DNA of 64,000 nt from Synechococcus sp. Nb3U1 (GTDB lineage Bacteria > Cyanobacteriota > Cyanobacteriia > Thermostichales > Thermostichaceae). The stretch spans positions 592,079-656,078 of the forward strand of contig NZ_JAKFYQ010000001.1 of NCBI RefSeq assembly GCF_021533835.1, in the 5' to 3' direction. Position 1 is the first letter of the stretch. Each line of letters opens with the position of its first letter. A program made the translations under genes and the position numbers. Below are positions 1-26,028 of the stretch, in pieces. The notes below the pieces were generated by a model. That model ran no database searches, was not told the DNA's origin, and worked only from the letters and a program-made list of their open reading frames with translations.

Positions 1-588
1 GGGTTTGTCCCGGCAATGTCATTACCCAGCACAGGAATGGTCACCGCCGTATTGGCCGGGGTTGTTGCTGTGTCATCGTTGGCTGTCGGCCCTACTGATT
101 CCACCGTCACTGTGACAGTGGCCGTGTCACAGAGGGGTGTAGAACCGTTATCACAAACCTCGTAAACAAAAGTGTCTGTACCGGTAAATGAGGGATTTGG
201 AGTGTAGGTAATCTCTCCAGTTAGCGGATTAACACTGACCGTGCCATTGCTTGGAGGCGTAGTGATAGTGACACTAGTGGGATCCAGAGGGTTTGTCCCG
301 GCAATGTCATTACCCAGCACAGGAATGGTCACCGCCGTATTGGCCGGGGTTGTTGCTGTGTCATCATTGGCTGTCGGCCCTACTGATTCCACCGTCACTG
401 TGACAGTGGCCGTGTCACAAGTGGGTTGAATAGTCAAAAAGCCTGTATCACAAACCTGGTAAACAAAAGTGTCTGTACCGGTAAATGAGGGATTTGGAGT
501 GTAGGTAATCTCTCCAGTTAACGGGTTAACGCTGACTGTGCCATTGCTTGCAGGCGTAGTGATAGTGACACTAGTGGGATCTAAATCA
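1..588 (-). repeat. Tandem repeats of about 288-297 bp coding Ig-like domains
   Basis: The block beginning at position 1 recurs almost unchanged at 289, a 288 bp period (96 residues). The block at 151 recurs at 448, a 297 bp offset, so one linker is 3 residues longer. Only a few bases differ over more than 120 bp, including at third codon positions, which points to recent duplication or gene conversion. More copies probably lie left of the window. Confidence 0.9.
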
Positions 589-2120
589 AAAGTAACACCT
601 TGATCATTGGCCAGCACATCAATGACAACAGGCGTAACTCCTGAAGTGACTGCGCTGTCGTCATCTGCAATAGGATTAAAAGTAATAACGGCCCCGTTGG
701 CAGCCAGATCTATTCCGCCCTTAGCCTCAGCAGTGTTTGTAGGGAATGTGCTTACATCAGCAAACTGAGCCGGAACGGTTGGTGCATCTTCACCTGCCAA
801 AGAGAAACCAAAAAAGACTTGGTTAGCAGCAATTCCCAGATCTTTGTAGCTGACAAAAACTCCGGAAAGCTTCTGATTTGTAACCGTAGCCGTTACCGTA
901 GCACCTGACAAGGTAGGGCCTGCAGATTTATAAACCTTAGTAGAAGGAATTACAGTTCCCTTGCCCCAAGTTCCACTGCCGACAGAAATCACAGAACTAT
1001 AGGTTGGGGATAATAATGGATTACTTTGAATTGCGGAGATTGTAAATGGATCGTTTCCCCCTCGCTCTAAAATTAAAAAACCAATTTTGTCTAACTTTGC
1101 TGGCGGAGCTGTAATTCCTGAAGTATTGATATAGTCAACTCTTTCGATGTTGTTGGAATTTACAGATCCAGTATTAGTAAACAAGTTATCTGATCCGGCT
1201 TTGATAATCAGTGTTGGTTGAATTAGAAGAGCATCCTCCATTGTGTTCAGGCCTAACGTTATCGGAGTGTCAGGATCACGCACCCAGACAATTTGACGAG
1301 AACCTTTTACATTTGCATTATCAACTCGATTGAGCTTAACTTGATTAATAACGCTTGAGGGTGTAGCTTGTAGGGTGCCAACAGAAACATTAGTCAGTTC
1401 GCTGTTGACATCGAGAGTTGGTACGGCAGCGGTTTGCAGAGTGTGTTGGTAGCGCTGCTGCGCGCTATTCTCAACAACAATGGTTGAAGCAACTTCACGG
1501 CCGGCAGTAACCTCCAGGAGCCAGTCGCCATTCAAATCTGCATAACCGGTAGCATTGTTGGACGCCGCAATATCGGCTTGGGTCAAGTGAGCCAATTGCT
1601 CAACCAACAATTCCCCTTCAGATCCGGCAGCGACATGGCAACCATAGATCAAAATATCAGCAGCAGGTGCCAAGGCTTTTTGCCATGCCTGCAGCTGCGG
1701 CACATAGGTGCCTACGTTGCTCAGTGAGAGTGACACTCTCCCCAACTCAATGGCTCCCGGGCTGCCATGAGAAAGAATATGAATGGCCTGGATTCCTCGG
1801 CGGATGCTTAAAACCTCAGTAATTTGTCGGATCCCGTCTTGATTGCTATCCAGCAGTATCACCTCAGCACTGGGATGGATCCCTGCCAATAAGATGGCCA
1901 AATCCGGCAGATTTGGATCCACAAAAACCAGCTCCTGGCGAGCAGCAGTATCCACAATCCCACCAGGATCCTTTTGGACTGCGTTGATCTCAGCCGAAGC
2001 AGATATTAGCAGCAAGAGTGCAGTTGCAACGCTTCCCAAACCCAACTTAGGGATCCAGCGCTTGACTGTTAGCCCCTTGGCTTGAATAGCTTGAGATCCA
2101 TTAGATTTTTGGGCTGACAT
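1..2120 (-). CDS. DUF4347-domain adhesin with Ig/cadherin-like repeats, C-terminus outside window
   Basis: About 706 codons are visible with no stop, reading off the left edge. The N-terminus has a basic stretch and a hydrophobic segment (residues about 28-42), likely a signal peptide. Residues about 55-200 match my knowledge of DUF4347, a module at the start of very large cyanobacterial surface proteins: HILSHG (His114, His118) followed by DILIYGC (Cys161), an arrangement like the His/Cys pair of clan CD caspase-like folds. A central region of about 280 residues is not recognised. The C-terminal part holds 96-99 residue Ig/cadherin-like repeats (GTDTFVYEVCD, DDTATTPANTAV) of the kind found in RTX-type adhesins. 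Probable role: secreted surface adhesin, with DUF4347 perhaps acting in processing (inference). The start ATG at 2120 is the first in frame, about 50 bases after the upstream lipoprotein reading frame ends. Confidence 0.85.
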   Translation of the reverse strand, partial: MSAQKSNGSQAIQAKGLTVKRWIPKLGLGSVATALLLLISASAEINAVQKDPGGIVDTAARQELVFVDPNLPDLAILLAGIHPSAEVILLDSNQDGIRQITEVLSIRRGIQAIHILSHGSPGAIELGRVSLSLSNVGTYVPQLQAWQKALAPAADILIYGCHVAAGSEGELLVEQLAHLTQADIAASNNATGYADLNGDWLLEVTAGREVASTIVVENSAQQRYQHTLQTAAVPTLDVNSELTNVSVGTLQATPSSVINQVKLNRVDNANVKGSRQIVWVRDPDTPITLGLNTMEDALLIQPTLIIKAGSDNLFTNTGSVNSNNIERVDYINTSGITAPPAKLDKIGFLILERGGNDPFTISAIQSNPLLSPTYSSVISVGSGTWGKGTVIPSTKVYKSAGPTLSGATVTATVTNQKLSGVFVSYKDLGIAANQVFFGFSLAGEDAPTVPAQFADVSTFPTNTAEAKGGIDLAANGAVITFNPIADDDSAVTSGVTPVVIDVLANDQGVTFDLDPTSVTITTPASNGTVSVNPLTGEITYTPNPSFTGTDTFVYQVCDTGFLTIQPTCDTATVTVTVESVGPTANDDTATTPANTAVTIPVLGNDIAGTNPLDPTSVTITTPPSNGTVSVNPLTGEITYTPNPSFTGTDTFVYEVCDNGSTPLCDTATVTVTVESVGPTANDDTATTPANTAVTIPVLGNDIAGTN

Positions 2121-16531: not shown

Positions 16532-18250
16532 TCAGGGATCCCCGGATGAATTCAGCCGTTGCTGCTGGGCTAACCGGAAATTAAGCAAAATCACCGGTAA
16601 GATTCCCACCAACACGATCGCCAAAGCTGGGGCTCCTGCTTCCGCTAGCCGTTCATCAGCGGCCATCCGGTAGGTCTGCACCGCCAAGGTGTCAAAGTTA
16701 AAGGGCCGCAGCACCATTGTGGCGGGCAATTCTTTCATCACATCTACGAATACCAGGATCATCCCCCCCAGGATCCCTCCCCCCATCAGGGGTAGATGCA
16801 CTCGCCACAGGGTTCCCAGGGATCCCTGGCCTAGGCTGCGGGCTGCTTCATCCAAGCTGGGAGGAATCCGCATCAGGGTGGCTTCGATGGTGGAGAGGGA
16901 AACCGCCAAAAATCGCACCAAATAGCCAAAAATTAACGCTGTGATTGTGCCACTGATCACCAAGCCAGGGGGTTGTTGGAAAAGTACCTGCCGCAGATGG
17001 CTCAACATCTGATCCAGCCGCCCCAGGGGGAGCAGTACCCCCACGGCGATCACCACCCCTGGCAGAGCATAGCCCAAAGACGACAGCTGTACCGCTAGGC
17101 GCAGACCCCAGGGGGATCCCAGGCGTCCTAACCCCTGCAGCCGCAGGCCATAAAGCACCAGCACGGATACCAATATGGCAATCACCGCCGTCACTGTGGC
17201 CAGCACCAAGCTGTTTTGGGCGTAGCTCCAGAAGCGGCGACCCAAGCTCCCCTGTCGTAGGGTCATATTCAACAGGATCAGGGCGGGAACGCCAAAGCCC
17301 AAGACAATCGGGATCCCACAGGCTAGCCAAGCTCCCACGGCTCGCATTCCCCGCAGGACATAACGACTGGCGGCGGGTTTGCACCCCTGGCGATAGTAGC
17401 GTGCTCGCCGTCGAGCCATTTGCTCTCCTACCATCAGCAGCAGCACCAACAGCAGCAACAAAGCTGACAACTGGGCTGCCGCCACCGGGTTGCCCAAGGC
17501 CGTCCAGGTTCGGTAAATGCCTGTCGTAAAGGTATCTACCCCGAAATAGCTGACGGTACCAAAATCATTCAGAGTTTCCATTAGCGCCAACAGAGCCCCA
17601 GCTACAATTCCTGGTCGGGCCAGGGGCAACGCCACCTTCCGAAAGCTGGCCCAAGGGCCGTAACCCAGGGATCGGCTCACCTCCAAGCAGGCCACTGATT
17701 GCTCCTGAAAAGCCAGCCGCGCCGCCAAATACACGTAGGGATATAAGGTGAGAATCAGCAGCAGCGTTGCCCCCCAGAGGGAGCGGATGTTGGGAAACCA
17801 GTAGTCGCCAATTCCCCAGCCGGTGATCCGCCGCAGCCAAATCTGAAAGCCGCCGGTTACCTGCAAAAAATCGGTATAGGCATAGGCCAAAACATAGGTG
17901 GGGGCCGCCAGGGGCAATACCAGCATCCATTCCAGCCAGGCCCGCCCCCAAAACTCACATAGGGTCACCAACCAGGCGGTGCCACTGCCTACCAGGATCA
18001 CCCCCGTTGCCACCCCTACCATCATCAGTAGGGAATTGCGTACGTAAAGCCCTAGCACCGTCCCTGCCAGATGTTCCCACACCTGCCGCTCGTCCGCTAG
18101 CAGACTCAACAACACCGTCAGGGTGGGCACCAAAATTAGGCCCGTTAAAACCAGGGTGAGCAATGCCCAGCAGTTTAACCTAGGCCATTGCATTTTCCTG
18201 AGGCTGTGCCCAAAGTATTTCTTTAGGGGTGGCTCGGCCAGTTTGCTCAT
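16532..18250 (-). CDS. futB: Ferric iron ABC transporter permease FutB
   Basis: 572 residues with about 12 membrane segments in two homologous halves, the fused permease layout of FutB/SfuB/FbpB. Each half has a BPD_transp_1 EAA-type loop (LEVSRSLGYGPWASFRKVAL in the first, LDEAARSLGQGSLGTLWRVH in the second). It would import ferric iron across the inner membrane with the FutA-type binding protein whose gene lies 270 bp upstream on the same strand. The ATPase FutC is not in the window. It converges with the cytochrome b561 gene, the two stops being about 25 bases apart. Confidence 0.88.
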   Translation of the reverse strand: MSKLAEPPLKKYFGHSLRKMQWPRLNCWALLTLVLTGLILVPTLTVLLSLLADERQVWEHLAGTVLGLYVRNSLLMMVGVATGVILVGSGTAWLVTLCEFWGRAWLEWMLVLPLAAPTYVLAYAYTDFLQVTGGFQIWLRRITGWGIGDYWFPNIRSLWGATLLLILTLYPYVYLAARLAFQEQSVACLEVSRSLGYGPWASFRKVALPLARPGIVAGALLALMETLNDFGTVSYFGVDTFTTGIYRTWTALGNPVAAAQLSALLLLLVLLLMVGEQMARRRARYYRQGCKPAASRYVLRGMRAVGAWLACGIPIVLGFGVPALILLNMTLRQGSLGRRFWSYAQNSLVLATVTAVIAILVSVLVLYGLRLQGLGRLGSPWGLRLAVQLSSLGYALPGVVIAVGVLLPLGRLDQMLSHLRQVLFQQPPGLVISGTITALIFGYLVRFLAVSLSTIEATLMRIPPSLDEAARSLGQGSLGTLWRVHLPLMGGGILGGMILVFVDVMKELPATMVLRPFNFDTLAVQTYRMAADERLAEAGAPALAIVLVGILPVILLNFRLAQQQRLNSSGDP

Positions 18251-18520: not shown

Positions 18521-19567
18521 CTACTTCCAGCCGGCTCGATCCATGACCATCAATGCATCTGGGGTGACTCGGCCAATACTAGCGGCGTTGAGGGTATCTT
18601 CCTTAAAGCTGCCAAAGCTCGCCACCACCGAATCGATCTCCGCTCCCGCCAAAACCGGATACTCATTATTGCTCTGGGCGAAAATGGCTTGGGCTTCTGG
18701 CCCGGAGAGGAACTCTAGAAACTGGATAGCTGCTTCTTTGTTAGGAGAAGTTTTCAAAATACCAGCACCGCTGATATTGACATGAGTGCCGCGATCCTCC
18801 TGGTTGGGGAAGAAGACACCAATTTTCTCCGCCACCGCCCGATCTTCGGGGTTATCGGACTTAATCAGGCGGGGCAGGTAGTAGGTGTTGGATAAGGCCA
18901 CATCCCCGACGCCGGCAGCAACGGCCTTGATTTGATCCGTATCTCCTCCTTCCGGCGGACGGGCAAAGTTGGCCACCAAGCCCCGCGCCCATTCCTCCGT
19001 TTCCGGGATCCCGTGGGCCAAAATGATCGAGGCGGTCAGAGATTGGCTATAGACATTGCTGGAAGAACGGGTGAGCACTTTACCCCGCCACTTCGGATCC
19101 GCCAAATTCTCGTAGGTGGAGAGTTCGCCAGGATCCACTGTGTCTTTGTTATACATGATCACTCGTGCCCGTTTGGTGAGACCAAACCAATGCCCTTCCG
19201 GATCCCGCAGGGAGGCGGGGATATTTCTGGACAGGGTAGCAGACTCGATCGGTTGAAACAAGCCCTCATTTTGGGCACGCCACAGCCGGGCAATATCCAC
19301 CGTCATGAAAATATCGGCAGGGCTATTCGCTCCTTCGCTGCGAATTCGCTGGGTAATCTCGTCGGCATTGCCCTGAACCCAGTTGACTGTAATGCCCGTT
19401 TTTTGCTTAAACAGCTCGTACAATTCTTCATCGGTGCCGTAGTGCCGTGAAGTATAAAGGTTTACCTCCTGGTTAGCGCCGTGGGCCGGACGCAGGAAGG
19501 ATCCCGCCGCCAAGGCTACAGAGCCTAAAGAGACTCCACTGACAAACTGCCGTCGCGATAAGCGCAT
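18521..19567 (-). CDS. futA: Ferric iron-binding protein FutA
   Basis: About 348 residues. The N-terminus MRLSRRQFVSGVSLGSVALA is a Tat signal, fitting the known Tat export of FutA2. The mature protein begins with NLYTSRHYGTDEELYELF, and SEGANSPADIFMTVDIARLW, GLTKRARVIMYN, NTYYLPRL and FFPNQEDRGTHVN are closely like Synechocystis FutA1/FutA2; the Tyr residues in YTSRHY and NTYY are the iron ligands in that family. I choose the ATG at 19567, with GGGAG ten bases before, over a TTG two codons upstream. It works with FutB downstream. Confidence 0.93.
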   Translation of the reverse strand: MRLSRRQFVSGVSLGSVALAAGSFLRPAHGANQEVNLYTSRHYGTDEELYELFKQKTGITVNWVQGNADEITQRIRSEGANSPADIFMTVDIARLWRAQNEGLFQPIESATLSRNIPASLRDPEGHWFGLTKRARVIMYNKDTVDPGELSTYENLADPKWRGKVLTRSSSNVYSQSLTASIILAHGIPETEEWARGLVANFARPPEGGDTDQIKAVAAGVGDVALSNTYYLPRLIKSDNPEDRAVAEKIGVFFPNQEDRGTHVNISGAGILKTSPNKEAAIQFLEFLSGPEAQAIFAQSNNEYPVLAGAEIDSVVASFGSFKEDTLNAASIGRVTPDALMVMDRAGWK

Positions 19568-19887
19568 ATACAACTAACTCCCAAGCTCAGAAAATCCTAA
19601 AAAAAGCTGCACCACCCCATTAACAGAGTCGGCAATGGCCCTCTCTGCTGAGAAAACGCTCAAAAACCGCTCCACTGAAGCAGAAGTGGTTGCCCTGAAT
19701 TTGAAGCCCGATGTCGGTTACCTCAGGCTCAACTTGTTGAGATTTTTATTCAGGAACTTTTCTCTGGTGCTCATGATAAGAGATCTCAGATACCTGGTCA
19801 AGCTATTAAGATATATTCTCATTTGTGGATCGTCTGCTGATCCACAGAGTTTGGGAGAGCTCGGTTGAATGCTGAAGGGCGAGGGGT
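19568..19887 (-). promoter_or_regulatory. Upstream region of futA with a possible Fur-box-like stretch and an inverted repeat
   Basis: 320 bases with no convincing gene. AAGATATATTCTCATTT at about 19809 resembles the AT-rich TTCTCA core of cyanobacterial Fur boxes, about 240 bases before futA. Next to it, TGTGGATC-N7-GATCCACA (19824-19846) is a perfect 8 bp stem just after the stop of the gene at 19888. It could terminate that minus-strand transcript, but no T-run follows. Both readings are tentative. Confidence 0.3.
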
Positions 19888-20505
19888 TCAATGGCAATCG
19901 AGGCTGGCAAACACCTGTTCCGCTTGGGGCAGGGCGTTGTTGCCGGTGGAGATGAGCAGAAACATGAGCAGGTCTTCTCGGTGCAAAACCGCGGACTGAT
20001 AAACGACACTGGGCACGGTTGTGGATCCCTCTTGGCTCTCTCCTTCCAAGATCAAGAGCGAGATGGCCTGATCGCAAAGGCGGCGGGATTCACTGCGCTC
20101 GAGGGTAATTTCTACATCCTCGGAACGGAACTCACTGACCCCTTCTCGAAAATTGGCCTCTAGCTCCTGCCGGTCGATCTCGTTCAATGCCTCAGCGCCA
20201 ATGCGGCCCACCATCAGCAGCACCTCTTCGTCGCGGCTGGTTACCCCGGCAAAATCGATCGGGCCGAGGCTAAAGCTCACCACCCCCTGTGAGCCGCCAG
20301 GAATTTGGTGTTTGAAAATGGTTTGTGCTTTTTCTTCTACAGCCCCTGAGTCGAGGGTAAAGCCCGTAACTTCCCGCAACACCCGCGAGAGATAGTAGCC
20401 TGCCGCAACACAGGATCCCACCCCCAGCACCAGGAGCAGTCCGCACCCGAGGGCAACCCCGCGCCAGGGAAAACCAGAACGGGGATCCGGTTGAGTGGAA
20501 GTCAT
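19888..20505 (-). CDS. Single-span membrane protein, unknown function
   Basis: 205 residues from the ATG at 20505 (MTSTQPDPRSGFPWRG); the reading frame extends upstream but codes low-quality sequence there. One membrane segment near the N-terminus (GVALGCGLLLVLGVGS) with the remaining 150 residues probably outside the cytoplasm. The body alternates short strands and acidic stretches (SFSLGPIDFAGV, EVLLMVGRIGAEAL) and ends QVFASLDCH. I do not recognise the family. It is divergent from the channel gene at 20648, sharing a 142 bp promoter region. No operon partner downstream. Confidence 0.65.
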   Translation of the reverse strand: MTSTQPDPRSGFPWRGVALGCGLLLVLGVGSCVAAGYYLSRVLREVTGFTLDSGAVEEKAQTIFKHQIPGGSQGVVSFSLGPIDFAGVTSRDEEVLLMVGRIGAEALNEIDRQELEANFREGVSEFRSEDVEITLERSESRRLCDQAISLLILEGESQEGSTTVPSVVYQSAVLHREDLLMFLLISTGNNALPQAEQVFASLDCH

Positions 20506-20647
20506 AGCAAGAGCCCCAGCCTGCAACGTTGGGTGACTTGAGTGTAGCAAGGTGTGTTCACCTAAGGCGGAGATCTTCAACACCTGTAGGGCTGGAAATC
20601 CTTTGGGTATCCCTTTGGTATAACGAGGGGAGGGTATGTAGCAAGAT

Positions 20648-22849
20648 ATGACAGGCTCCCTTTCTGACTTGCCCCGACTACAGCCGCAAGACAACAGCAG
20701 GGATCCCGACGCGGCCATTCTGGTGTGTGGCTATAACGATTTGGTAGAGCTGACCCTACAGGCTTTGGAGGCTTTTGGACAACGGGCCTTGGTGGTGGAT
20801 CCGCAGCCGCTGCCTACCCAAATCCATCGCTGGCGACATCTGCGAGGGGATCCCCGGCAACGGGAGGTATTGCAACAGGCTGGGATCGAGGGGGTGAAGG
20901 TGGTGCTGCTGCTGCAAGACAACGACCAAGCTAATTTCGAGCTGGCCTTGTTAATCCGCGATCTCAACCCCCAGGTGCGCATTGTTTCTCGTCTGTTCAA
21001 CCGCAGCATCGCCGCTTACCTCGACTCGGTTTTGCCGCAGCACTTTTCCCTATCTATTGCCGCTTTGGCTGCCCCGGCCTTTGCCCTGAAAGCGGTTTCG
21101 GATGAATTTGTCGGCTACTTCGAGTTGCCCCAGCTGGAGGCCAAGCCAGCGATTCTGCCCCCCGAATTGGCGGATCCCTTGTCCCTCACCCTGTCCCAAG
21201 AAACCACCCTCTGGAACGTGGTGGATCTGACAATTGAGGATAACTCCCGCCTGTTGCACATGCCCCTGGCGGAACTGGAAGAAACCTTCGGGGCGCGGGT
21301 GCTGTTCCACTACCCGGTGGATGGACTTTCCGACTTTTCCGAGTGCCGGGTTTTCGATGATTTCGACCATGAGGCAGAGCTGATCGAGGGGGATCGCATT
21401 CTGGTGATTTGTGATCCGCAAGCCTACCTACAACTGTTGGAGCGCAACGGGCGGCGCGGATCTTCACGGGCCCAACGCTGGGCCAGCGGGCAGGCAGAAG
21501 ACAAACAACAACAACGGCAGCGCACACCCCTCCGGTGGGGATCCCTAGGATTTTGGCTGCGCAGGGGGGGGCAAGGGCTGGTGCAGATGAAGCCGATCGT
21601 GCGCACCCTCACCTTCACCTTGGGAGCAATGTTGGTGTTGGGGGTGATTAACTTCAGCTTGATTGGCAAATCCGTCGTGGATGGATTGCTCCTGACGATT
21701 GTGGTGCTGACGGGGGGCTACGGGGATATTGAAGATTTTCAGCAGCCGGACACGCCGCTAGCGGTGAAAGTGTTGGCGGTATTTATGACTTTGGTGGGGG
21801 CAGCTTTGGTCGGGTTGGTTTACGGTTTGGTCACCGACAAGTTGGTGAGCAGCCGCTTTGGCTTGGGGCGGGCCGCGCGCATGCCCAAGCAGGATCATGT
21901 GGTGATCGCGGGCTTAGGGCGGCTGAGCTACTTAGTCTTGCAGTTGTTGCGGCAGATGGGCTACGAGGTGGTGCTTCTGGAACCAGAAACCCAAAATCCC
22001 CTGCTAGAAGCGGCAGAGCGGGAAGGGGCGATGGTCATTCGAGGCGATTATGCCCTGGCCGGAACCCTACAACAGGGGCACATCGAGGGCAGTCGCTGTC
22101 TGATTTGCACCACCCGCAATGACCTCACCAACATCGAGACAGCCCTCACAGCCCACACCCTCCACCCTGGCATTCGCACTATTCTGCGGGTCGCCGATCC
22201 AGAACTGGCGGATCGGATGCAGCGCCATATTCAAACCCTCGGGATCAGCTATAGTGCCACCGGGCTGGCGGCACCGGCCTTTGCCACAGCGGCTCTAGTG
22301 GGATCTGTTTATGGCACGTTGGCTTGGGAAGGGGAAACCCTCTTGGTGACACTGCTGGAGGTTTCTGCCCAGTCCCACTACCTGGGGCTATCGCTGCGGC
22401 AGTTGGCCAAAGATTACGATCTTGTGATTTTGCTGCATCAGTCCAGGCCGGGCAAGCCTCAAATTTTCCCAAAACTTTGGCAGAAAGAAGGTGAGACTTT
22501 TTTGAAGGAGGGGGATCAACTGTACGTGATGGGGGCAGTGGGATCCCTGATTCGCCTAGCCCAAAACCGGCCTTTCCCCCCAGAACTCTATCAGGTGCGC
22601 CTTTTGGAGTACCACAACGCCTACTTCGAAGAGGAGATCCTCTCGGCGCTCTCCTTTTATGCCCGTTTGCCCAAGACTGTGCTCAAGCCTCTATTGCACC
22701 ATCTTCCTGCTGTGGTCAGCCCACCCATGCCCCGTGACAAGGCAATCAAGCTAGCCCGACAGCTGCGCAAAATGAGCACGGAGGTGCAGGTGTTTGCTCA
22801 GGTGCAGCCCACCCATGGGATCCCTGGGGCGATGTCCGAAACTGTTTAA
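20648..22849 (+). CDS. RCK - two-span channel - RCK protein, putative K+ channel
   Basis: 733 residues. Order: an RCK/TrkA-N-like Rossmann module (about 22-150, AILVCGYNDLVEL, VVDPQPLP), a linker (about 150-310), two membrane spans (about 320-345 and 372-395) bracketing the loop VVLTGGYGDIEDF with TGGYGD at 355-360, a second TrkA-N module (about 415-535, HVVIAGLGRLSYLVLQLL, RGDYAL), then a TrkA-C-like domain and a tail. TGGYGD differs from the K+ filter TVGYGD at the second position. The first RCK lacks the classic GxGxxG. Usual bacterial K+ channels have RCK only after the pore, so a module before it is unusual. A nucleotide- or ion-gated channel is inferred. Start ATG at 20648; an upstream start is not excluded. 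Confidence 0.75.
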   Translation: MTGSLSDLPRLQPQDNSRDPDAAILVCGYNDLVELTLQALEAFGQRALVVDPQPLPTQIHRWRHLRGDPRQREVLQQAGIEGVKVVLLLQDNDQANFELALLIRDLNPQVRIVSRLFNRSIAAYLDSVLPQHFSLSIAALAAPAFALKAVSDEFVGYFELPQLEAKPAILPPELADPLSLTLSQETTLWNVVDLTIEDNSRLLHMPLAELEETFGARVLFHYPVDGLSDFSECRVFDDFDHEAELIEGDRILVICDPQAYLQLLERNGRRGSSRAQRWASGQAEDKQQQRQRTPLRWGSLGFWLRRGGQGLVQMKPIVRTLTFTLGAMLVLGVINFSLIGKSVVDGLLLTIVVLTGGYGDIEDFQQPDTPLAVKVLAVFMTLVGAALVGLVYGLVTDKLVSSRFGLGRAARMPKQDHVVIAGLGRLSYLVLQLLRQMGYEVVLLEPETQNPLLEAAEREGAMVIRGDYALAGTLQQGHIEGSRCLICTTRNDLTNIETALTAHTLHPGIRTILRVADPELADRMQRHIQTLGISYSATGLAAPAFATAALVGSVYGTLAWEGETLLVTLLEVSAQSHYLGLSLRQLAKDYDLVILLHQSRPGKPQIFPKLWQKEGETFLKEGDQLYVMGAVGSLIRLAQNRPFPPELYQVRLLEYHNAYFEEEILSALSFYARLPKTVLKPLLHHLPAVVSPPMPRDKAIKLARQLRKMSTEVQVFAQVQPTHGIPGAMSETV

Positions 22850-25353: not shown

Positions 25354-26028
25354 TTAGCTATCGGTCACCACCAGGGGGTAATTCAGGGTGGGGTTGAGGG
25401 GGCAGCTATACACATATTCACCCGGTCTGAGACTGACCACGTAATCTTTGGTCATTCCTTCTGTGAGGCCACCACCACTGACTCGGGGTAAGGTCACACC
25501 CCCCAATCCAGCCCCCCTCAAATAGAACCCTACTTCATAAGGTACCGATTCGTTGGTGACACGGAAAACATAATCTCCAGCGGGCAGGGTGAGCGGTTGA
25601 GCTGTGCGGCTATCGGCAGTGGTTTGGTTGATCTGTTTGCAGTCTTCCGCCGAATTGGATTGGAAGTTCAGGTTCACCCCTTCGCTCTCCAAAAACTGAC
25701 AAGGAGTTTGGGTCAGACTAACGATATTTTTGCCATCTACCACTTCTACTGCCAACTTGTAAGAGGCACAGGGGTTGGCCACCGCTTTCACATCAGCAGT
25801 TTCAACCGGCTCGCTGGCAGAGCTGGAAGCCGCACAAGGATTAGCAGTCTTAGCTGCACAGGGATTAGCTGCACAGGGATTAGCGGATTTTGCTGCGCAG
25901 GGGTTGAGAGGAGCACAGGGATTTGGCCCACATGGGTTGGCTTGGGCAGTTAATGAACTCTGAGTAATACCGCTCACAAGGCTAAGGACAATGGCACATC
26001 CAATCAGGGCCAGGTACTGAACTTTCAT
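25354..26028 (-). CDS. Secreted protein with NPCA repeats and a cupredoxin-like C-terminal domain
   Basis: 224 residues. A signal peptide (MKVQYLALIGCAIVLSLVSG) ends near QAN, followed by a Cys-rich tract at about 31-68: NPCGPNPCAPLNPCAAK, repeated NPCAA/NPCAAK units with one Cys each, roughly nine Cys in total counting a later NPCAS. Then about 140 residues: PAGDYVFRVTNESVPYEVGF and RPGEYVYSCPLNPTLNYPL, a beta sandwich of cupredoxin type in which the Cys-containing loop is YSCPLNPTLNYPL instead of the Cys-His-Met ligand set of blue copper proteins. Possible metal (copper or iron) binder in the periplasm or at the membrane (inference). Isolated gene; AGGAG precedes the ATG closely. Confidence 0.75.
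   Translation of the reverse strand: MKVQYLALIGCAIVLSLVSGITQSSLTAQANPCGPNPCAPLNPCAAKSANPCAANPCAAKTANPCAASSSASEPVETADVKAVANPCASYKLAVEVVDGKNIVSLTQTPCQFLESEGVNLNFQSNSAEDCKQINQTTADSRTAQPLTLPAGDYVFRVTNESVPYEVGFYLRGAGLGGVTLPRVSGGGLTEGMTKDYVVSLRPGEYVYSCPLNPTLNYPLVVTDS

Follow-up and report, generated by a model that had tools for sequence, protein, structure and literature searches.

The channel subunit of MthK, a Ca2+-gated K+ channel, carries a single RCK domain. Half of its gating ring comes from separately expressed RCK subunits, a point stated in part in the accessible portion of one study, which also describes GsuK of Geobacter sulfurreducens, with ADP and NAD+ as activators and Ca2+ as an inhibitor (PMC3510474). 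Among channels with other filters, CASTOR is Ca2+-selective without TVGYG (PMC6697748), and NaK, with a TVGDG filter, has two sites and is non-selective (PMC8689586; PMC9822992), as far as the excerpts of these papers go. For cyanobacteria, the available part of one paper credits Synechocystis with five K+ channel homologues (PMC13099474), and the accessible text of a review of photosynthetic-membrane channels contains none of the five queried terms (PMC3928508); among open-access titles and abstracts, each a partial view of its paper, we found none describing a family in which the pore lies between two RCK domains.

Here, we describe a protein of this kind, encoded in a 64,000-nucleotide stretch of the genome of Synechococcus sp. 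Nb3U1 (the window). A preliminary description of this DNA, made from the letters alone, had proposed a channel with RCK domains on both sides of its pore, and that proposal is backed by Pfam, by alignment to a hidden Markov model (HMM) of K+ pores and by the predicted structure. The computed results are the domain order, the homology of the pore to K+ pores, a pore loop one residue shorter than theirs and purifying selection on the gene. We read the product as one subunit of a cation channel, a tetramer gated by its RCK domains, whose selectivity for K+ would be altered and is probably lower; the chances of this reading we put barely above even, and in it the tetramer, its gating and ligand, conduction, selectivity and docking are points that we infer.

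Gene conservation and domain order

The open reading frame (ORF) is a real gene under purifying selection. Orthologues with 81–88% identity occur in five other genomes of the genus, so that the gene is present in all six including the window's own, and one further genus of the same family has an orthologue (L040) with 52% identity. Against four genus members, the ratio of nonsynonymous to synonymous substitution rates (dN/dS; Nei-Gojobori, own script) is 0.10–0.14 for the whole gene, which, together with the orthologues in this genus and another, places the ORF beyond chance. In the pore region the ratio is 0.05–0.11, below the whole-gene value in three of the four comparisons, and the filter motif TGGYGD is unchanged within the genus.

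Pfam TrkA_N matches the protein in two stretches (E 6.4e-32, 110.7 bits), the better of which, and the sole one with a located position, covers residues 418–526; TrkA_C likewise matches in two stretches (E 1.3e-9), the better at 192–265. Both families score over their cut-offs, as expected of RCK N-lobes and C-lobes. Combined with the AF2 model, these matches place RCK1, with both its lobes, first, then a pore of two helices, then RCK2 and last a C-terminal domain. The full-length model, a monomer predicted from an alignment of 79 relatives, reached a predicted local distance difference test (pLDDT) score of 86.9 and a predicted template modelling (pTM) score of 0.82. The arrangement of GsuK and Slo, with both RCK domains after the pore, was not found, since Pfam and AF2 place one RCK before it. 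The Rossmann module noted earlier before the pore is thus present, yet it forms part of a complete RCK domain with its own C-lobe; of the RCK pair proposed after the pore, one member stands, and the place of the other is taken by a domain resembling the C-terminal domain (CTD) of ribosomal protein L7/L12 (AF2, Foldseek and VIA-align).

Structural alignment with VIA-align, whose ranges give the first and last aligned residues only, matched the model to TrkA (4j9u_F; Z 23.5, root-mean-square deviation (rmsd) 4.7 over 428 residues, model range 22..643), to GsuK (4gx0_A; Z 23.4, rmsd 2.3 over 262 residues, 18..552 on 127..480) and to CASTOR (6o7a_D; Z 20.8, rmsd 3.0 over 271 residues, range 21..558). 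Because the alignments are longer than a single RCK N-lobe and their ranges take in both RCKs, RCK1 appears in the model to pair with RCK2 much as in GsuK or TrkA, in the manner of a gating ring, although the pore intervenes in sequence; the Foldseek superposition of the whole model, given below, is poorer. TrkA itself was ruled out as an identity for this protein by the presence of a pore.

Pore loop and filter in three cyanobacterial clades

The cyanobacterial relatives form three clades, A, B and C, that share the RCK-pore-RCK architecture and differ in the filter. Each is set apart from the rest of the tree by a branch with SH-aLRT support of 100, and the joint group has 87; the tree leaves out 11 of 97 rows (long ones, near-duplicates and a channel with a single RCK). 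Clade C, with the window's protein, comprises seven distinct rows, as the channel ORFs of L034 and L037, and those of L035 and L038, are identical. It is placed with clade A at a support of only 51, and the short loop described below may have arisen once or twice; the C-terminal domain common to B and C argues for grouping these two.

Homology to 2TM K+ pores was found both with an HMM of ten pores and with a profile search of the PDB. The HMM, in which four of the ten K+ pores are relatives of this or a similar architecture and thus not fully independent, matches the window's pore (independent E-value (i-E) 6.7e-13) with a one-residue deletion in the filter region. When a profile of the 79 relatives was searched against solved structures, GsuK was matched with a whole-sequence E of 1.6e-26 (i-E 7.8e-12 for the pore stretch alone), MthK at 3.4e-15 and short chains named "potassium channel protein" at about 2e-6, among them 3ouf, which we take to be NaK.

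In the MAFFT alignment, the distance from the column of D345 to the last motif residue is 15 positions in all 46 clade B and all seven clade C rows. The same spacing is 16 in every ordinary K+ channel whose anchor could be read (28 channels), from a set of 32 loci (L118–L120 and L209–L237) that were the top Ion_trans_2 matches of the class, a sample that leans to canonical filters; the anchor is unreadable in L120, L220, L236 and L237, the last of which has the filter TTVGYGD. HMMER placed a one-residue deletion in the filter region of all seven B or C proteins tried and of none of six from clade A. These alignments firmly indicate that the loop falls one residue short of the K+-channel length. 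The loss may fall on a layer of the filter or on the pore helix, which would then be shorter, with Gly facing Val. MAFFT and HMMER locate the gap in the filter region, and the profile alignment to GsuK, broken by further gaps at this place, is uninformative on its position.

TGGYGD was correctly identified in the preliminary description, and as letters it fits TxGYG, yet the loop length is not that of canonical K+ channels (15 versus 16). The claim that Gly stands where K+ channels have Val would hold with the gap in the pore helix (phmmer) and fail with the gap in the filter (MAFFT, HMMER). A plain V-to-G substitution is in any case insufficient, the loop being one residue short by MAFFT (53 of 53 B and C rows), HMMER (7/7) and phmmer against MthK. 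The earlier reading was to fail if TGGYGD proved common in known K+ channels of this type; it occurs in 0 of the 28 readable pores, counted with a pattern that admits Gly, in a sample that leans to canonical filters.

Filter motifs were counted on distinct rows of an alignment of 106 proteins; the counts omit L147 (cut by a contig end), L162 (565 aa, early end) and L048 (a cut copy of L041), and the pores of L147 and L162 also read LGGYAD. TGAGG is found in all 37 clade A rows, the next residue being K, N, Q, H or L and the one after it E or D; the loop of this clade is of ordinary length and has no GYG. Clade B shows xG(G/Q/D/S)(Y/F) in 46 of 46 rows, most often LGGYGD (21) or LGGYAD (9), and clade C has TGGYGD in six rows and NGGFGD in one (L040). 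Five clade B proteins (L041 of genome G293, L135, L160, L164 and L165) carry an N-terminal extension of about 100 residues before RCK1. The window's genome itself encodes a clade A paralogue (L002/L003, G000:C2:297176-298741), again RCK-pore-RCK, with TGAGGKE and no GYG; such a paralogue is found in two of the six genus genomes, the other being G298 (L042). TGAGG is possibly the stranger of the two filters.

Relatives in other classes of the phylum have ordinary filters: two TrkA_N stretches accompany TTTGFGD in L159 (575 aa) and the ordinary-length TTTGYGD in L155, and L151 and L157, of this or a similar architecture, have one TrkA_N stretch each. The ordinary-length filters of these relatives suggest that the odd filters are derived and that the ancestor was a K+-type channel. 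A scan of genome contigs made from the single protein, which reaches close relatives only, yielded two relatives, both cyanobacterial. Plasmid searches returned Streptomyces and Rhodococcus proteins and one Salinirubellus match. The profile scan of viral contigs gave no relative, and 66 stretches matching a 20-base degenerate filter pattern in these contigs are taken as chance.

C-terminal domain, ligand signatures and neighbouring genes

Residues 647–718 form a further alpha/beta domain in the full-length model. Folded alone (AF2, 49 sequences), the domain reached a pLDDT of 84.6, and its six best Foldseek matches are L7/L12 structures (1rqs, E 2.1e-3, probability 1.00; 1ctf, 2.7e-3), followed by ClpS; no Foldseek match with the C-terminal domain lies at or below 1e-3. 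With VIA-align, the five best L12 entries scored Z 10.5–10.8 (rmsd 1.5–2.5 over 68–74 residues, 14–22% identity), ClpS 8–9 and penicillin-binding proteins 7.5–8. The beta-alpha-alpha-beta-alpha-beta fold of the L12 CTD is found in the predicted model, and an L7/L12-CTD fold is likely on this basis. Pfam Ribosomal_L12 (PF00542) is unlisted for the ten proteins scanned at E up to 10, a range in which the HMMER filters drop most matches above about 0.1. Comparison by hhalign with a profile of 13 cyanobacterial L12 proteins (from 24 loci fetched, the others having missed the pattern) gave a probability of 38% (P 3.3e-4) for B and C together at a looser setting, 20% (P 1.2e-3) for B and 1% (P 0.04) for C, and common ancestry with L7/L12 is unsure.

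Within alignment A1, all 49 rows of clades B and C have the domain and all 28 of clade A lack it. A search of 388 genomes of the class with its profile, at an E-value limit of 0.001, gave matches in 202; some of these are weak or in short frames, and a profile match alone does not imply the context of a channel. One L12 match, in a 788 aa frame, resembles by eye a flotillin-type protein rather than a channel and was set aside, and for two matches reported in 1305 aa frames we found 720 aa clade-B-like frames with FGGYGD, which stand outside the counts.

Nucleotide signatures were also counted on the rows of A1. The preliminary description had stated that the first Rossmann module lacks GxGxxG, which proved true of all seven clade C rows; the second also lacks the last Gly (GLGRLS), again in 7 of 7. 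The motif occurs in RCK1 and RCK2, respectively, of 23 and 23 of 28 clade A rows, 40 and 33 of 42 clade B rows and 0 and 0 of seven clade C rows. An acidic residue ends strand beta2 of RCK1 in 0/28 A, 40/42 B and 4/7 C rows, and that of RCK2 in 28/28 A rows, in none of the 41 of 42 clade B residues listed and in 7/7 C rows. By these signatures, the nucleotide site is likely to be RCK2 in A, RCK1 in B and at most RCK2 in C. RCK1 of clade C may, as the preliminary description suggested, have another ligand or a structural role. The RCK1 C-lobe of clade C further contains a conserved acidic stretch (Table 1), the pattern of which is kept also in L040 (52%); it might be a candidate site for an ion or ligand, such as a divalent ion.

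Table 1. Features of the channel gene, with positions in the window and the basis of each assignment
Feature	Position	Strand	Basis
Channel coding sequence, complete, 733 aa + stop	20648..22849	+	ORF open from ATG
RCK1 N-lobe, Rossmann, residues 23-150; GYNDLV instead of GxGxxG	20714..21097	+	Pfam TrkA_N, AF2, motif count
RCK1 C-lobe, TrkA_C, residues 186-266	21203..21445	+	Pfam TrkA_C 192-265, AF2
Conserved acidic stretch DFSxxRxF(D/E)DFDHEAE in RCK1 C-lobe, residues 229-244; window sequence DFSECRVFDDFDHEAE	21332..21379	+	Pattern in 7/7 clade C rows
TM1 (first transmembrane helix), residues 316-338	21593..21661	+	AF2 helix
Pore helix, residues 343-354	21674..21709	+	AF2 helix, HMM alignment to K+ pores
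Filter TGGYGD, residues 355-360	21710..21727	+	Sequence, AF2, alignments
TM2 (second transmembrane helix), residues 371-404	21758..21859	+	AF2 helix
RCK2 N-lobe + C-lobe, residues 417-638; GLGRLS, acidic residue at beta2 end	21896..22561	+	Pfam TrkA_N 418-526, AF2, motif count
Predicted C-terminal L7/L12-CTD-like domain, residues 647-718	22586..22801	+	AF2 of domain alone, Foldseek, VIA-align; hhalign weak

Upstream of the channel, a solute-binding protein gene (18521-19573) lies beside it at all seven genus loci other than the window's own and was not found beside L040 (1.5 kb flanks); L034 and L035, the two loci covered with 4 kb flanks, also have a transport permease gene (16532-18250). Downstream of the channel, the window has a pyridine-nucleotide oxidoreductase gene, which was seen at none of the eight other loci. 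A divergent upstream ORF (19888-20718, minus strand), as listed, overlaps the channel start by 71 bases, and its true start is probably further inside. Farther along, the minus strand encodes a 224 aa protein (25354-26028) that has no match in Pfam at 0.001 and carries cysteine repeats of the NPCAAK type close to the N-terminus.

Competing explanations and known channels

As a cation channel of the kind we favour, the protein would work with both RCK domains of the gating ring supplied by each subunit: the one that MthK has as a separate soluble subunit would here be fused before TM1, and the other would follow TM2. A ligand in the RCK pair would move the ring and open a gate at TM2; its site would most likely be RCK2, because RCK2 keeps the acidic residue at the end of beta2 and RCK1 has lost the glycine motif. 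Ions would then cross a filter in which GYGD is retained and the loop lacks one residue. This shortening relative to K+ channels probably alters one K+ site or more and lowers selectivity for K+; that the filter may alter selectivity is reasonable, all the more given the short loop and the lack of GYG in clade A. The L7/L12-like domain would probably act as a docking module. More tentatively, and as a rather unlikely case, one may see here a naturally evolved three-site cation filter, one ion layer short of K+ channels, in an undescribed RCK-pore-RCK superfamily of cyanobacteria, with an L7/L12-like docking domain and a filter rebuilt more than once; TGAGG without GYG in A, and GGY in the short loop of B and C, would be the rebuilt forms, while the gating domains stay recognisable.

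Several results pull the other way. Pfam Ion_trans_2 (PF07885) matches residues 327–399 under its cut-off (16.4 versus 22.5 bits). For the six top GsuK rows, Foldseek superposes the model with TM-scores of 0.39–0.41 by query length and rmsd of 10–14, and VIA-align fits whole MthK chains at rmsd 12–15, so that the placement of the pore relative to the ring is unsure. The tetramer, which we infer, lies beyond the reach of a monomer prediction. In all four alignments shown, phmmer against MthK pairs LTGGYGD with ATVGYGD and assigns the gap to the pore helix, which would leave a filter of ordinary length. An ordinary K+-selective channel with a shorter pore helix, in which TGGYGD forms four K+ sites with Gly for Val, would fit these alignments, as it would the AF2 pore helix (343–354) directly before the filter, the retention of Thr and GYGD in six of seven distinct clade C rows and the purifying selection on the pore within the genus. 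We regard such a channel as rather unlikely, because Gly precedes GYG in 0 of 28 readable canonical pores, MAFFT and HMMER place the gap in the filter region, L040 has NGGFGD, and clade B has another residue for the second Gly of GYG in 18 of 46 rows (GGYAD in 9, GGYSD in 4, GGYDN in 3, GSYDI in 1 and GGFSD in 1).

With that replacement in clade B, one cannot take conduction for granted across the wider family. The protein may be a non-conducting, membrane-anchored sensor whose pore holds the RCK ring and the L12-like domain and whose signal exits via the C-terminal domain, in keeping with A and B filters that vary while the RCK domains stay, with the distribution of the C-terminal domain (all B and C rows of A1, no A row), with the Pfam pore score and with the comparison to L040, in which the pore is less conserved than the whole (41% identity versus 51%; dN/dS 0.27 versus 0.19). 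The low dN/dS of the pore within the genus, the constancy of TGGYGD there and the alignment of pore helix and TM2 across all three clades make a sensor of this kind improbable in our view. A divalent-cation channel like CASTOR, in which the acidic mouth (GYGDIED) and the acidic stretch of RCK1 would serve to select or sense Ca2+, would draw on the precedent of an RCK channel that is Ca2+-selective without TVGYG (PMC6697748, as excerpted), on the presence of the stretch in every clade C row and on the match of the RCK pair to the CASTOR ring. We hold it to be highly improbable, since CASTOR's AD(S/A)GNHA motif is missing from the filter, the domain order differs and GYGD is a K+-type signature; domain order and filter likewise rule out membership in the CASTOR/POLLUX/DMI1 group.

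To our knowledge, clear natural test cases for the way filter length sets K+ selectivity are few. One RCK-pore-RCK architecture with two loop lengths and several filters makes selectivity comparable within it, and, as the C-terminal-domain profile matches in more than half of the genomes of the class, the ion balance of many photosynthetic bacteria may involve a type of channel that has been overlooked, so far as these matches lie in channels. The parts, those of RCK-gated 2TM channels, are known; among open-access titles and abstracts we found no account of domain order, short loop and extra domain in combination.

Compared with known systems, the C-terminal domain shares its predicted fold with the L7/L12 CTD and ClpS and differs from L7/L12 in its low identity to the five best entries and in the missing Ribosomal_L12 match. 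Among actinobacterial plasmid NAD-binding proteins, P0003 and an ORF of L183 (both Streptomyces) have two TrkA_N stretches each and P0002 (Rhodococcus) has one; they lack GYG by eye, the K+ pore model leaves P0003 unmatched (E 0.12), and the place of two of the plasmid proteins in the tree is unsure owing to long branches. In L181, L182 and L183, from Rhodococcus and Streptomyces plasmids, TrkA_N follows a two-helix membrane-like stretch without GYG, with a Rossmann fold before it by eye; L181 and L182 are annotated as NAD(P)-binding or NAD-binding protein and L183 has no annotation. NaKTs of Tsukamurella paurometabola resembles the present protein as a bacterial 2TM member of the K+ channel family that has a non-canonical filter and is non-selective, and differs in its proline-rich filter LPMGNGPLSP and simple 2TM topology, according to the available part of its description (PMC5052707). 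CASTOR, POLLUX and DMI1, plant nuclear channels, have an RCK pair without TVGYG and a ring that matches the model; in the accessible text, they have four transmembrane helices followed by two RCKs, with the filter AD(S/A)GNHA (PMC6697748). MthK, the best PDB match by phmmer (1.2e-8), likewise has a 2TM pore followed by an RCK, and differs in having TVGYGD in a loop one residue longer. GsuK, a 2TM channel with tandem RCKs, has two RCK domains per subunit, on which the predicted pair superposes; its order is pore-RCK-RCK, its filter region MTTLGFGD is of ordinary length by eye, and at 565 residues it is not expected to have an L12-like domain. The RCK-pore-RCK order suggests a covalent gating ring built otherwise than in GsuK and Slo.

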